Position numbers and translations under genes: made by a program | NCBI RefSeq assembly: GCF_010119935.1 | Contig: NZ_CP048209.1 | Coordinates: forward strand, 2,297,001-2,361,000 | Direction of reading: 5' to 3' | Length of the DNA stretch: 64,000 nt | DNA from: Paenibacillus lycopersici | GTDB taxonomy: Bacteria > Bacillota > Bacilli > Paenibacillales > Paenibacillaceae | The notes under the pieces: model-generated | The model's database searches: none | The model's input: the letters and a program-made list of their open reading frames with translations, nothing else | Told to the model about the DNA's origin: nothing | Shown here: one piece after another, positions 30,538 through 35,818 of the stretch | Layout: each line of letters starts with the position of its first letter | Position numbering within the stretch: the first letter of the stretch is position 1

Positions 30538-31320
30538 ATGGCAAACCCTAAAGACCCGCAGCAGCCCCGCGACGAATCGCGCAGGCAGTTTCTGAAGTAC
30601 TCGGGCACCGCGATCGGCGGCGTCGTTGTCGGCGGCGTGATCGGCGGCCTGATCGGCGCAAACGCGAAGTCGACCAAGAAGGAAGAAGCTCCGGCGCAGC
30701 CCGATACCGGCAAGCCGGCCCAGTCGGCCAACCGGGATTACAATCAGGCGCTCATGTTTTTCAACCAGGACCAGTTCCTGACCGCGGAAGCGGCGGCGGA
30801 GCGGATTTATCCGAAGGACGATTCCGGTCCAGGCGCGAAGGAGCTCGGCGTCGCCTTCTTCATCGACCATCAGATGGCGAGCGCTTACGGGATGAACGCG
30901 CGCGAGTACATGAGCCCGCCTTTCTATAAATCGGAGACGACGCAGGGCTATCAGCTGTCGTTCAAACGCCGGGAGTTGATCGCGCTCGGACTGGACGCGG
31001 TGAACCAGTACAGCACCGAGAAGCATCAGAAGGCGTTCCCGGATTTGACGCCGGAGGAGCAGGATCAGGTGCTCGGCGACTTCGAGAAGGACGTCGTCCA
31101 GATCAAAGGCGTGCCGGCATCGACGTTTTTCTCGTTCTTCCTGAACCTGACGATCGAGGGGGTCTACGCGGACCCGCTCTACGGCGGCAACAAGAACATG
31201 GACGGCTGGCGGATGCGCAATTACCCCGGCAACCAGATGAGCTACACCGACAATATCGAGAAAGAAGATTTTGTGAAAATGGAACCGTTAAGCCTGAGCG
31301 ATCATCTCGAAATCGGCTAA
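30538..31320 (+). CDS. Gluconate 2-dehydrogenase subunit 3-like protein with Tat signal
   Basis: A 260-residue small (gamma) subunit of the membrane-bound FAD dehydrogenases (gluconate, glucose, sorbitol type). The N terminus has a twin-arginine motif SRRQFLK (residues 14-20) and a Gly/Val/Ile-rich hydrophobic stretch. The rest carries the subunit-3 segments FFIDHQMASAYG and FFSFFLNLTIEGVYADPLYGGNKNMDGW. Such subunits carry the Tat signal and bring the signal-less GMC subunit out by hitchhiking. It starts the redox operon; GMC, tatC, tatA and a CuA lipoprotein follow directly. RBS GAGAGGCGAG. Confidence 0.9.
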   Translation: MANPKDPQQPRDESRRQFLKYSGTAIGGVVVGGVIGGLIGANAKSTKKEEAPAQPDTGKPAQSANRDYNQALMFFNQDQFLTAEAAAERIYPKDDSGPGAKELGVAFFIDHQMASAYGMNAREYMSPPFYKSETTQGYQLSFKRRELIALGLDAVNQYSTEKHQKAFPDLTPEEQDQVLGDFEKDVVQIKGVPASTFFSFFLNLTIEGVYADPLYGGNKNMDGWRMRNYPGNQMSYTDNIEKEDFVKMEPLSLSDHLEIG

Positions 31321-31341
31321 AGGCAAAGGAGAGAGCAGAGC

Positions 31342-33063
31342 ATGGCAACGAAACTTCCCAAAGTGCCGATCGTTATCGTCGGCATGGGCTGGGTAGGCGG
31401 CATTATCGCCGCGGAGCTGACGAAGGCCGGCCATTCCGTCGTCGGCCTGGAGCGTGGCAAGAGCCGGAACACGCAGGATTATTACCACGTGCACGACGAA
31501 CTGCGGTATGCATCCCGCTACGAATTGATGCAGGACTTGTCGAAGGAAACAGTGACGTTCCGTAATACGTCCAAGCAGCGGGCGCTGCCGATGCGCAGCT
31601 ACGGCTCGTTCCTCCTGGGGGACGGGCTCGGCGGCGCGGGCGTGCACTGGAACGGGCAATATTACCGCTTCCTGCCGTATGATTTCGAAATTCGCAGCAA
31701 GACGATCGAGCGCTACGGCGCCAACAAAATCCCCGACGGCATGACGATCCGCGACTGGGGCATTACCTATGACCAGCTGGAGCCGTATTACGTCAAATTC
31801 GAGCAAATGGCCGGCATCGGCGGCGAGCCGACGACGCCGGCGAACGTCGGCGCGATGTCCAAAGCGTTCCCGGTCGGCCCGATGAAGAAGACGCCGGCCA
31901 TGAAGCTGTTCGAGGACTCGGCCAAGAAGCTCGGCTACCATCCGTACATCATTCCGTCGGCCAACTTGACCGAAGTGTACAAGAACCCCGACGGCATCGA
32001 GCGGGCGCCGTGCCAATACTGCGGCTACTGCGAGCGGTTCGGCTGCGAGTACGGGGCGAAGTCCGATCCCGTCGTGACCGTGCTGCCGGTCGCCCAGCAA
32101 TCGGGCAAGCTGGATTTGCGCACCCATTCGAACGTCACGGAAATCCTGCATGACGGGAAACGGGCTACGGGCGTGCGCTACATCAACACGCCGACGGGCG
32201 AAGAATACATCCAGCCCGCGGATGTCGTCATCCTGTCCAGCTACCTGTTCTCGAACGTCAGGCTGCTGCTGCTCTCCAAGCTTGGCACGCCGTACGATCC
32301 GAACACCGATACGGGATCGGTCGGACGCAACTATGCCTACCAAGTGAACGGCGCCAGCACCAACGTCGTGTACGAGGACCGCGAATTCAATATGGCGATG
32401 GGCGCCGGCGCGCTCGGCAGCAGCTTTGACGATTTCAACGGCGACAATTTCGATCATGCCGACCTGAAATTCCTTCACGGCGCGAACATCCGGTTCACGC
32501 AGACGGGGCTCCGGCCGATCCAATTCCAGCCGGCGCCGGCGGGCACGCCGAAATGGGGCGCCGAGTTCAAGAAGCAGACGCTCCATTATGCGAACCGGAC
32601 GCTGACGGTCGCCGCGCAAGGCTCCAGCATGCCATGGCGCCATCACTACCTGGATTTGGATCCGGAATACAAGGACGCGCTCGGACTGCCGCTTATTCGG
32701 CTGACGTTCGATTTCGAGGATCAGGATCGCGAGCTGGTCAAGTACATCGCCGCTCGGACGAAGGAAATCGCCGACGGCATGGGCGGCACGAAGACGGAAA
32801 TGCACGATTCAATCAAGCAGTACAATATCGTGCCGTACCAATCGACCCATAACACGGGCGGTACGATCATGGGCAGCGATCCGAAGACGTCCGTCGTGAA
32901 TAACTATTTGCAAATGTGGGACGCGGAGAACGTCTTCATCTGCGGCGCCTCCACCTTCTCGCACAATAGCGGCTTCAACCCGACCGCGACGGTCGGCGCG
33001 ATGGCATATCGGGCAGCGGACGGCATTGCCAAGTATCTCGCGAAGCCTGGACCGCTCGCATGA
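31342..33063 (+). CDS. GMC-family FAD dehydrogenase, catalytic subunit
   Basis: A 573-residue flavoprotein. The FAD-binding Rossmann motif GMGWVGG is at residues 14-20, and the C-terminal GMC_oxred_C region has THNTGGTIMG and STFSHNSGFNPTATVGAM with the catalytic His and the FAD contact. Cys224, Cys227, Cys230 and Cys235 form a tight cluster (CQYCGYCERFGC); alpha subunits of bacterial FAD glucose/gluconate dehydrogenases hold a 3Fe-4S cluster there. There is no signal peptide of its own. It is likely co-exported with the Tat-signal subunit encoded 21 bp upstream. The substrate (sugar, sugar acid or alcohol) is unknown. Its stop overlaps tatC. Confidence 0.92.
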   Translation: MATKLPKVPIVIVGMGWVGGIIAAELTKAGHSVVGLERGKSRNTQDYYHVHDELRYASRYELMQDLSKETVTFRNTSKQRALPMRSYGSFLLGDGLGGAGVHWNGQYYRFLPYDFEIRSKTIERYGANKIPDGMTIRDWGITYDQLEPYYVKFEQMAGIGGEPTTPANVGAMSKAFPVGPMKKTPAMKLFEDSAKKLGYHPYIIPSANLTEVYKNPDGIERAPCQYCGYCERFGCEYGAKSDPVVTVLPVAQQSGKLDLRTHSNVTEILHDGKRATGVRYINTPTGEEYIQPADVVILSSYLFSNVRLLLLSKLGTPYDPNTDTGSVGRNYAYQVNGASTNVVYEDREFNMAMGAGALGSSFDDFNGDNFDHADLKFLHGANIRFTQTGLRPIQFQPAPAGTPKWGAEFKKQTLHYANRTLTVAAQGSSMPWRHHYLDLDPEYKDALGLPLIRLTFDFEDQDRELVKYIAARTKEIADGMGGTKTEMHDSIKQYNIVPYQSTHNTGGTIMGSDPKTSVVNNYLQMWDAENVFICGASTFSHNSGFNPTATVGAMAYRAADGIAKYLAKPGPLA

Positions 33064-33824
33064 GCGGCGGGGAGGGCGGCAAGCTTTCCCTCGACCGCGA
33101 CTTGATCGCGCATTTGACCGAGCTGCGCAAGCGGCTGATCTTCGCGTCTATCTGGTTCGTCCTCTCGCTAGCCGCAGGTCTCTACGTCTCGCCGCGCATG
33201 CTGCATTTCGTGAAGACGCATCTCGGCTCCGTGCGCGTGGAATGGAGCGTGTTCGCGCTGTCGGACGGCATTGCCGTCTACATGAAATGCGCGCTGATGA
33301 TCGGCTTGCTGCTGTCGCTCCCGGTGTTCATGTACCAGATCTGGGCGTTCGCAAGGCCCGGCATGACGGAAGCGGAAGCGAGAAGCACGCTCTTCTACGT
33401 GCCGCTGTCGTTCGTGCTGTTCTTGGCGGGCGTGCTGTTCGGCTATACCGTGGCGCTGCCGATGATGATCTCGTTCATGATCAAGCTCAACCATTCGATC
33501 GGCGCGCATGAGGTTTACGGCATTCAGCATTACGTGTCGTTCCTCGTGAGCTTCCTGCTGCCGATGGGGTTGGCGTTCGAAATGCCGCTCGTCATGCTGC
33601 TGCTGGCGCGCGTCGGGCTGCTGTCGCCGGGCAATCTGAAGCAGGCGCGCAAATTCGCGTACGTCGGACTCGCCGTTCTGGGCTCGCTGATCTCGCCGCC
33701 GGATTTCGTCTCGCATCTGTCGGTTACCGTTCCGCTCATTCTGCTGTTCGAGATCAGCGCATGGATCAGCATGCGATACATGAGAAGAAAGTCGAAGCCA
33801 TCCCTGGAACCGGCGCTTCCTTGA
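33060..33824 (+). CDS. tatC: Sec-independent protein translocase TatC
   Basis: A 254-residue protein with six membrane helices that recognises twin-arginine signals. It has the N-terminal HLTELRKRLIF motif, LPVFMYQIWAFARPGMTEAEAR and FLISPP-like LGSLISPPDFVS. It overlaps the GMC gene by 4 bp, so it is translationally linked to its likely cargo, as expected for a dedicated TatC. Confidence 0.96.
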   Translation: MSGGEGGKLSLDRDLIAHLTELRKRLIFASIWFVLSLAAGLYVSPRMLHFVKTHLGSVRVEWSVFALSDGIAVYMKCALMIGLLLSLPVFMYQIWAFARPGMTEAEARSTLFYVPLSFVLFLAGVLFGYTVALPMMISFMIKLNHSIGAHEVYGIQHYVSFLVSFLLPMGLAFEMPLVMLLLARVGLLSPGNLKQARKFAYVGLAVLGSLISPPDFVSHLSVTVPLILLFEISAWISMRYMRRKSKPSLEPALP

Positions 33825-33867
33825 CGGAAACGCCGATTCCGCCATCTTATCCGAAGGAGGAGACCGT

Positions 33868-34068
33868 ATGTTCAACAATGTCGGCATTTCCGGCTTGATC
33901 ATTATATTGGCCATCGCGCTGATCGTATTCGGGCCGGCGAAGCTGCCGCAGCTCGGCCGCGCGTTCGGAGACACGCTGCGTGAATTCCGCAACTCGACGA
34001 AGGGCATCATAATCGACGATGCGATCGAAGAGAAGCAGCCCGTCAAGGAATTGGAAGAAGTCAAATAA
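33868..34068 (+). CDS. tatA: Twin-arginine translocase TatA
   Basis: A 66-residue protein with one N-terminal membrane helix (about residues 6-22) and the TatA hinge FGPAKLPQLGRAFGDTLREFR, with an amphipathic helix after it. RBS AAGGAGGAG. With tatC it makes a minimal Gram-positive TatAC translocase, 43 bp downstream of tatC. Confidence 0.95.
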   Translation: MFNNVGISGLIIILAIALIVFGPAKLPQLGRAFGDTLREFRNSTKGIIIDDAIEEKQPVKELEEVK

Positions 34069-34080
34069 GGAGTGTTCACC

Positions 34081-34515
34081 ATGAACAATCGGCTACGCAA
34101 AGGCCTGCTGACGGCCGTTCTGTGCTGCGCTGCCGCGCTTGCGCTAAGCGGCTGCGGCGGCAACAACAACGCGAACAAGAACAATACGGGTACGAACAAC
34201 GGCAATACAGGTACGAACAACAGCGCCAACACCGGCGCAAGCTCCGGCGGCGAACAGACGATTACGGTCAAGGCGAGCAATTTCAAGTTCGATCAGCCCG
34301 AAATCCATGTGAAGCAAGGCGACAAAGTGACGATCAAGCTGCAGAACGACCAAGGCATGCACGGTTTCGCGATCGACGATTACAACGTGGACATCAAGGA
34401 AAGCGGCGGAACCGCCAGCTTTACGGCGGATAAGGCGGGCGAGCACCCGTTCCACTGCTCGATCGTGTGCGGAGCGGGCCATGCGAACATGGTCGGCAAA
34501 CTGATCGTCGACTGA
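34081..34515 (+). CDS. CuA-type cupredoxin lipoprotein
   Basis: A 144-residue lipoprotein. The signal peptide ends in the lipobox LSGC (Cys25), followed by an Asn/Thr/Gly-rich linker (about 26-53) and one cupredoxin domain. The copper ligands form the CuA pattern: His94, then Cys126-x3-Cys130-x3-His134-x2-Met137 (CSIVCGAGHANM), as in cytochrome c oxidase subunit II and N2O reductase. There are no transmembrane helices other than the signal. The preferred ATG at 34081 is 8 bp after AAGGAG; GTG 34072 is possible. It would be an extracellular electron acceptor for the exported dehydrogenase; the role is inferred. Confidence 0.85.
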   Translation: MNNRLRKGLLTAVLCCAAALALSGCGGNNNANKNNTGTNNGNTGTNNSANTGASSGGEQTITVKASNFKFDQPEIHVKQGDKVTIKLQNDQGMHGFAIDDYNVDIKESGGTASFTADKAGEHPFHCSIVCGAGHANMVGKLIVD

Positions 34516-34559
34516 TCGTCGGCAGACCTGCAGCCAAGAAGGAACAGCTTGTAGCGAAT

Positions 34560-34690
34560 GGCCCTTAACTAAAGGCCCTTAACTAAAGGCCCTTAACTAA
34601 AGGCCCTTAGCGAAAGGCCCTTAACGAATGGCCCCACACCGAAAGGTCCTTAACGAATGGGCTCATCAACGAATGGGCTCATCAACGAAT
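34560..34690. repeat. Tandem array of nine degenerate 14-16-bp repeats
   Basis: Three identical copies of GGCCCTTAACTAAA begin at 34560. They are followed by variants at 34602, 34616, 34630 and 34645 and two identical 16-bp copies (GGGCTCATCAACGAAT) at 34659 and 34675. No coding sense; it lies in the gap after the CuA lipoprotein gene. Confidence 0.9.
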
Positions 34691-34724
34691 GTTTGCTCTT
34701 TCACTCGCATGCACACTTAGGAAT

Positions 34725-34858: not shown

Positions 34859-35818
34859 ATGAGAACGATCGTTTCCGTCGAGGCATTCCGGCCGGAACAA
34901 ATCGCGGCGCTTCGGACGGCGCTGCCGGAATTGGCTTTCATCGACGCATCGGCGCTCGATACGGAGACAGCCAGGGCGCATTTGAAAACCGCCGAAGTCA
35001 TTATCGGCTGGAACCGCGACGTGAAGAAGACGCTGTTCGAGGCGGACATCGCCCTGAAATGGCTGCAGACGATCAATGCCGGCGTCGATTCGATCCCGCT
35101 CGAGCGCCTTTCGGCACAAGGCGCTGTCTTGACGAACGCGTCGGGCGTGCATCCATATCAAATATCCGAATCGGTGTTTGCCATGCTGCTGTCGCTGACG
35201 CGCGGCGTGCATCGCGCCATTCGCAATCAGTCGGCGGGGAAATGGCAGCCTTCGCCCATGCTCGGAGAAGCTCACGGGCGCACGATCGCCATCGTCGGCG
35301 CCGGCGCGATCGGCGGCGAGATCGCCGTCCTTGCGAAAGCGTTCCGCATGCGCGTGCTCGGCATTCGCAGATCCGGCGCGGACGCCGAGAACGTGGATGA
35401 AATGGCGGGGTTGGATAAACTGAACGAAATTCTGGCGCGGAGCGATTATGTCGTCAATTGCCTGCCGCTGACAAGCGAAACGAGGCTGTTGTTCGGCAAA
35501 GCCCAATTCGAAGCGATGAAACCGACCGCGTTCTACATCAACATCGGCCGGGGAGCCACGACGGATACGGCTGCGCTGATCGGCGCTTTGCGGAGCGGCG
35601 GCATTGCCGGCGCCGGCTTGGACGTGTTCGAGCAGGAGCCGCTGCCGGAGAACCATCCGCTCTGGGAGCTGGACAACGTCGTGCTGACGCCGCATGAAGC
35701 AGGCAATACGGAGCATTACATGGATCGCGCCATGGAGATCGTGCTCGATAATCTGGCGCACTATCGCGCGCACGGCGTACCGGGCCGCAATCTGGTCGAC
35801 CTGAACGCGCAGTATTGA
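34859..35818 (+). CDS. D-isomer-specific 2-hydroxyacid dehydrogenase family protein
   Basis: A 319-residue NAD(P)-dependent oxidoreductase. It has the NAD motif GAGAIGGEIA (about residues 145-154), then the catalytic Arg in NIGRGATTD, the Glu in FEQEPLPENHPLW and the His in LTPHEAGNTEHY. The family reduces 2-ketoacids or oxidises D-2-hydroxyacids (glyoxylate, hydroxypyruvate, phosphoglycerate types). The precise substrate is unclear. The ATG at 34859 follows AGGAGAGGAG. Monocistronic between two terminators. Confidence 0.9.
   Translation: MRTIVSVEAFRPEQIAALRTALPELAFIDASALDTETARAHLKTAEVIIGWNRDVKKTLFEADIALKWLQTINAGVDSIPLERLSAQGAVLTNASGVHPYQISESVFAMLLSLTRGVHRAIRNQSAGKWQPSPMLGEAHGRTIAIVGAGAIGGEIAVLAKAFRMRVLGIRRSGADAENVDEMAGLDKLNEILARSDYVVNCLPLTSETRLLFGKAQFEAMKPTAFYINIGRGATTDTAALIGALRSGGIAGAGLDVFEQEPLPENHPLWELDNVVLTPHEAGNTEHYMDRAMEIVLDNLAHYRAHGVPGRNLVDLNAQY

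Follow-up and report, generated by a model that had tools for sequence, protein, structure and literature searches.

A GMC dehydrogenase operon of Paenibacillus lycopersici with its own TatAC and a CuA lipoprotein as candidate replacement for cytochrome c

Gene content of the operon

The stretch of DNA analysed here, called the window, comprises 64,000 bases (2297001–2361000) of the single-contig 6.74 Mb genome of Paenibacillus lycopersici, a soil bacterium. The system in question is a set of five tightly spaced forward-strand genes at window positions 30538–34515, encoding the small subunit (gamma) and the GMC-type catalytic subunit (alpha) of a flavin adenine dinucleotide (FAD) dehydrogenase, the twin-arginine translocation (Tat) proteins TatC and TatA, and a lipoprotein with the ligands of a CuA copper site. 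All five open reading frames (ORFs) were found where the original prediction, made from the DNA alone, had placed them. By the alpha protein, the nearest named relatives were Paenibacillus sacheonensis and P. glycinis (93% each). No promoter or terminator above shuffled expectation was found at the operon, and, on spacing alone, the five genes would share one transcript. No published account of such a gamma–alpha/TatAC/CuA lipoprotein system was found among the titles and abstract beginnings listed by searches of open-licence papers, which is not proof of absence.

The first gene (30538..31320) encodes gamma, a 260-amino-acid (aa) Tat-signal subunit of the Gluconate_2-dh3 (hitchhiker) family (PF13618, E-value 2.5e-31; TIGR01409 above its cut-off). 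Its residues 14–20 read SRRQFLK (30577..30597), as predicted, with no variation at R15, R16 or F18 across 33 aligned copies, and an RRxF[LIV] motif lay close to the N-terminus in 119 of the 130 gamma ORFs that could be placed by script. The gamma sequence of the window contains no Cys residue; its predicted model was weak (mean predicted local distance difference test score, pLDDT, of 66), and fold comparison gave no match at an E-value of 0.001. In L008/L051 (genome G031), the gamma gene lies in two reading frames, through either breakage or a sequencing error.

The second gene (31342..33063) encodes alpha, a 573-aa GMC FAD dehydrogenase (GMC_oxred_C, PF05199, E 1.4e-17) in which no signal peptide was seen by reading, in keeping with the signal-less flavoprotein proposed earlier. 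Its residues Cys224, Cys227, Cys230 and Cys235, spaced C-x2-C-x2-C-x4-C (32011..32046), stand at exactly the predicted positions, and form a probable iron–sulfur (Fe-S) site. The tatC gene (33060..33824; PF00902, E 4.9e-55; TIGR00945 above cut-off) does overlap the alpha gene, by 4 bases, and is followed by tatA (33868..34068; PF02416, E 6.3e-18), the product of which scored above the cut-offs of the TatA/E subfamily models and below that of the TatB model.

The last gene (34081..34515) encodes a 144-aa lipoprotein composed of a lipobox with Cys25, an Asn/Gly-rich linker and a cupredoxin domain (Cupredoxin_1, PF13473, E 3.9e-8). By reading, its best start is the ATG at 34081, 12 bases past the tatA stop and preceded by a GGAG box, and with this start the numbering of the predicted CuA ligands (His94, Cys126, Cys130, His134 and Met137; 34360..34491) fits. 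Cys25 and these five residues were identical in 12 of 12 aligned operon copies, for which the C...C...H..M part was itself the rule of selection; among unselected hits, this part was present in 16 of 16 alpha-adjacent homologues. The best solved relatives by sequence were CuA domains of cytochrome oxidase (6e-11) and nitrous oxide (N2O) reductase, and a Foldseek search with the predicted model, which has a cupredoxin domain with block pLDDT >90 from residue 61 onward, matched the CuA domains of oxidase and of N2O reductase with E-values near 1e-9.

By these alignments and the predicted model, the lipoprotein is a protein with the CuA-type ligand set and fold, and its copper site is a predicted one. 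It shares the His, two Cys, His and Met ligands and the cupredoxin fold with the CuA domains of heme-copper oxidases and N2O reductase, but differs from them as a separate, stand-alone lipoprotein that has no oxidase or reductase part and is encoded with a dehydrogenase; no oxidase subunit I was present among the genes read around the operon. To our knowledge, CuA is known solely from terminal oxidases and reductases, where it is the site of electron entry.

The enzyme pair and its export genes

For comparison of the five-gene order, 110 loci were assembled from 25 alpha-bearing relatives (those of 59 with alpha at ≥63% identity) and 98 of 122 further alpha matches, with 13 in common; the 24 matches left unscored comprised kin of lineages already scored, incomplete pieces, and a single tandem copy within a fetched stretch. 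The best 80 of 325 named loci were added, giving 190 loci with 148 distinct alpha proteins. In eight of the 148, the flanking DNA fell short of 5 kb on one side, and four of these eight were scored as having neither of the linked acceptors described below. An extra sample from outside the window's order consisted of 40 of 79 matches, at least three of the 40 duplicating named loci. In 148 of 148 distinct loci the gamma gene immediately preceded alpha, so that the pairing is more than chance, and gamma was present in 40 of 40 loci of the extra sample. TatC or TatA was encoded within 5 kb in 135 of the 148 loci (TatC in 125), and Tat genes were found in 19 of the 40. In L313-L320, from outside the order, a genome had as many as three copies of alpha, at ~50% identity, and none of these eight loci had Tat genes within 5 kb. 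A lipoprotein of 230–270 aa, which we take to be YhcN-like, was encoded on the strand opposite to gamma and upstream of it in L057-L068 and others (e.g. L066:11732-12424); many loci that lack a CuA gene have it next to the operon.

Alpha conservation was scored in 147 of the 148 distinct proteins, with one under the 450-residue limit omitted. All four cluster cysteines were invariant (147/147), as were His503, Asn542 and Asn546, and His102 was present in 146. Among solved proteins, alpha was closest to the fructose dehydrogenase large subunit (E 3e-34), followed by FAD glucose dehydrogenase, matched through its catalytic subunit (E 4e-20). The gluconate/glucose label of the original prediction derives from the family name of gamma and from distant kinship, and the closest solved enzyme is a fructose dehydrogenase.

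No NCBIfam model named alpha above its cut-off. A D-2-hydroxyacid dehydrogenase-like gene, assigned by reading, follows the operon at window 34859-35818, and could encode an enzyme that reduces a keto product. Several CuA loci with different flanking genes had part-length matches to it close to the operon; the linkage varies between loci, and deduction of a substrate from this neighbour was dropped for that reason. Short tandem repeats (14-, 16- and 28-base units) lie immediately 3' of the operon, at window 34555-34691.

In the alignment, Cys224, Cys230 and Cys235 fall on three cysteines of fructose dehydrogenase, and Cys227 is opposite an Asn. According to PMC6719666, FAD glucose dehydrogenase of Burkholderia holds a 3Fe-4S cluster on Cys212, Cys218 and Cys222, and a disulfide, not thought essential, joins its Cys213 to Cys152 of gamma. 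As the gamma of the window has no cysteine, it cannot form a disulfide with Cys227, and Cys227 may be a fourth ligand of the cluster.

The closest known enzymes are the gamma–alpha–beta FAD complexes (Burkholderia cepacia glucose dehydrogenase, Gluconobacter fructose dehydrogenase), with which the window operon shares a GMC alpha with FAD and surface Fe-S cysteines, a Tat hitchhiker gamma of the Gluconate_2-dh3 kind, and a gamma gene placed just before alpha. It differs in the fourth cluster cysteine of alpha, in the missing disulfide cysteine of gamma, in carrying its own TatC and TatA, and in having a CuA lipoprotein instead of a multi-heme beta subunit (no CXXCH ORF nearby). Since this defining subunit was looked for and is absent, the system is not a member of the gamma–alpha–beta kind, and is filed as a variant of the FAD dehydrogenase complexes that stands outside that kind and would work like them. 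A 710-aa paralogue encoded elsewhere in the window genome (G000:C1:2726534-2728666; L155:4535-6667) combines a Gluconate_2-dh3 part and a GMC part in one protein, keeps the C-x2-C-x2-C-x4-C cluster, and has no Tat signal by reading; single-frame fusions of this kind were present in 17 of the 59 relatives.

The tie between enzyme and export genes was assessed by TatC copy number and by phylogeny. The 25 relatives with alpha had a mean of 2.72 TatC copies per genome, compared with 1.32 in the 34 without (Mann-Whitney p 1e-7, uncorrected for kinship). A tree was built from 37 operon-neighbourhood TatCs (chosen from the 125 such loci) and 22 TatCs from elsewhere in twelve genomes, and 35 of the 37 linked proteins, that of the window among the alpha-linked clade, formed a single group with 100/100 support that contained none of the 22 unlinked ones. 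This clade held regardless of whether the tat genes run with or against alpha; in the two exceptions, L139 and L143, the tat genes lie ~1.8 kb upstream on the opposite strand. Since nearly all linked TatCs fall in a clade of their own, the Tat lineage appears to travel with the enzyme, and a dedicated TatAC inherited with the dehydrogenase operon, as proposed in the original prediction, is well supported by these sequence comparisons. In Bacillus subtilis, TatAdCd is encoded with PhoD, a Gram-positive TatA–TatC pair beside one substrate. The window resembles that arrangement in having TatA and TatC next to a likely substrate and further TatCs elsewhere in the genome; it differs in that the likely substrate is the gamma–alpha pair and that the linked TatC has its own clade in Paenibacillales.

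Linked electron acceptors: cytochrome c or CuA

CXXCH motif and tblastn scans of about 5 kb around the window operon revealed no cytochrome c gene, which agrees with the earlier statement that no cytochrome c subunit is encoded here, and the idea of one overlooked nearby was rejected on these scans. Weak matches of cytochrome queries to the CuA gene were removed by requiring CXXCH, and were due to the common signal peptide and Asn/Gly linker. Across the 148 loci, the linked acceptor within 5 kb was a small lipoprotein with one CXXCH in 80, a CuA lipoprotein in 18, neither in 50, and both in none; the linked cytochrome lipoproteins carried one CXXCH at most. The CuA lipoprotein of the window would resemble the monoheme cytochrome c lipoproteins of Bacillota, small lipid-anchored one-electron carriers of the outer face, one of which relatives encode beside this very enzyme; it would differ from them in using copper in place of heme. 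That many relatives pair the same enzyme with a monoheme lipoprotein, and that no locus has both, supports an exchange of CuA for cytochrome c. The absence of loci with both gave p 2e-7 in a Fisher test in which kinship was ignored; with kinship taken into account, however, 2 to 5 independent pairs remained and the result was not significant, so that the pattern is suggestive only.

The placement of the two kinds of gene was also compared. The CuA gene was directly after tatA, downstream and on the same strand, in 18 of 18 loci (16 behind tatC–tatA, two behind tatA alone), and the same slot was occupied in the one CuA-bearing locus of the sample from outside the order (L291). Cytochrome genes were upstream on the opposite strand in 31 loci, downstream of tat genes with opposing orientation in 26, and in the CuA slot (downstream, on the same strand as alpha and the tat genes) in five. 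It could be argued that the CuA gene stands beside the operon by accident, as it occurs in just 18 of the 148 distinct loci and is missing from the acceptor-less, mostly Cohnella, loci that fall among 13 Paenibacillus CuA loci on the alpha tree. However, the gene begins 12 bases past tatA in the window, is kept in these 13 Paenibacillus loci although the flanking genes of the window are common to only part of them, and recurs in the identical slot in other lineages, and because of this recurrence an accident is very improbable.

On the alpha tree, the CuA state required five changes, at least two of them forced by starred branches. One supported group of 20 comprised the 13 CuA loci of Paenibacillus and seven loci without a linked acceptor, most of them from Cohnella. 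A second tree was computed for 44 proteins selected by the CuA motif (18 linked and 26 unlinked, two of the latter being oxidase subunits), in which the linked proteins did not form one group and three changes were forced. The CuA gene was therefore recruited or lost more than once.

Several observations weigh against a CuA lipoprotein dedicated to this enzyme. Genes for CuA lipoprotein-like proteins were present in 58 of the 59 genomes, whether or not alpha was. Genome G002 has no alpha of this type (one distant match, 1e-38) and a single TatC, and has kept the CuA gene (73%); in its locus L148 (G002:C1:5949500-5969400), that gene lies between the flanking genes of the window, with gamma, alpha, tatC and tatA missing. 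Either the CuA protein can persist alone, or the loss of the other four genes was recent. The retained gene adjoins a 470-aa hydrolase-like ORF. All this would fit a CuA lipoprotein that is a general carrier or copper-handling helper of terminal oxidases, with the enzyme feeding any available cytochrome or oxidase. In two further loci (L259:2454-4417, L262:3235-4387), an unlinked CuA lipoprotein gene stands just 5' of a gene for an oxidase-type CuA subunit II, a layout in line with a carrier that reaches an oxidase and equally with such general service. Since the slot behind tatA is identical in 18 of 18 loci and again in L291, and CuA and cytochrome c genes never co-occur, general oxidase service is judged unlikely.

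The loci without a linked acceptor count against a fixed partner as well. They make up 50 of the 148 loci, close Cohnella relatives included, and 39 of the 40 from outside the order, where no credible cytochrome c gene was found. They could mean that gamma–alpha passes electrons to menaquinone or directly to an oxidase, the cytochrome c and CuA lipoproteins being optional. Against this, 98 of the 148 loci encode a small redox lipoprotein within 5 kb, the known relatives of the enzyme use a heme partner (PMC6719666 and PMC9727119), and unlinked genes could serve the acceptor-less loci, as 55 of the 59 genomes had some match to a cytochrome query, in some of them merely a subunit of a larger complex. 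Direct transfer to menaquinone or oxidase is therefore judged distinctly improbable. The term self-contained, used in the original prediction for the proposed export and electron-transfer unit, fits the lineage of the window, but is too general for the family in view of these acceptor-less loci and of G002.

Proposed electron route and its significance

The respiratory genes of the window genome were surveyed for other possible partners. PF13442 had two matches and PF00034 three. The matches listed included a 347-aa subunit II with CuA and heme motifs, whose gene is immediately followed by COX1, as well as two proteins named by reading, one QcrC-like and one of MauG type with two CXXCH; no small stand-alone cytochrome c of PF13442 or PF00034 was among the matches listed. 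In each of the other six CuA-bearing genomes among the 59, however, a small cytochrome c was encoded away from the operon, a further point against replacement.

In Bacillus azotoformans, monoheme cytochrome c lipoproteins are outer-face carriers (PMC3475470). The cluster in the catalytic subunit of the Burkholderia enzyme passes its electrons solely to a single heme of beta (PMC9727119). As one heme suffices there, one small carrier would suffice here, and CuA could fill that place.

On balance, it is judged somewhat probable that the operon encodes a gamma–alpha FAD/Fe-S dehydrogenase whose cytochrome acceptor has been replaced by the stand-alone CuA lipoprotein. Alpha would bind FAD and the Fe-S cluster, fold in the cytosol and pair with gamma, the Tat signal of which would carry it out through the translocase inherited with the operon. 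At the outer face, alpha would oxidise a sugar, sugar acid or polyol, with electrons passing from FAD to the Fe-S cluster and on to the CuA lipoprotein, which would stand in for the monoheme cytochrome c lipoprotein that relatives have and deliver them to the respiratory chain, probably to a caa3-type oxidase. Such a replacement had been suggested in the original prediction; it gains from the monoheme lipoproteins of relatives and from the lack of loci with both carriers, and is weakened by G002, which keeps CuA without alpha, and by the loci lacking a linked acceptor. The more specific proposal, that the CuA lipoprotein is a direct and exchangeable acceptor at the oxidising end of the chain that has replaced cytochrome c repeatedly, and that alpha may hold a four-Cys [4Fe-4S] cluster where relatives have 3Fe-4S, is regarded as evenly balanced.

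The operon is a clear example of a Tat translocase inherited along with one enzyme. The comparison further suggests that copper and heme electron carriers are swapped in this pathway. If this is true, an exported dehydrogenase can have a binuclear copper site as its partner where others have heme c, and natural gene sets that differ by one part would make it possible to test how electron carriers are exchanged in the respiration of Gram-positive bacteria. A natural gamma–alpha enzyme that is possibly wired to copper would also be useful for glucose-type biosensors.

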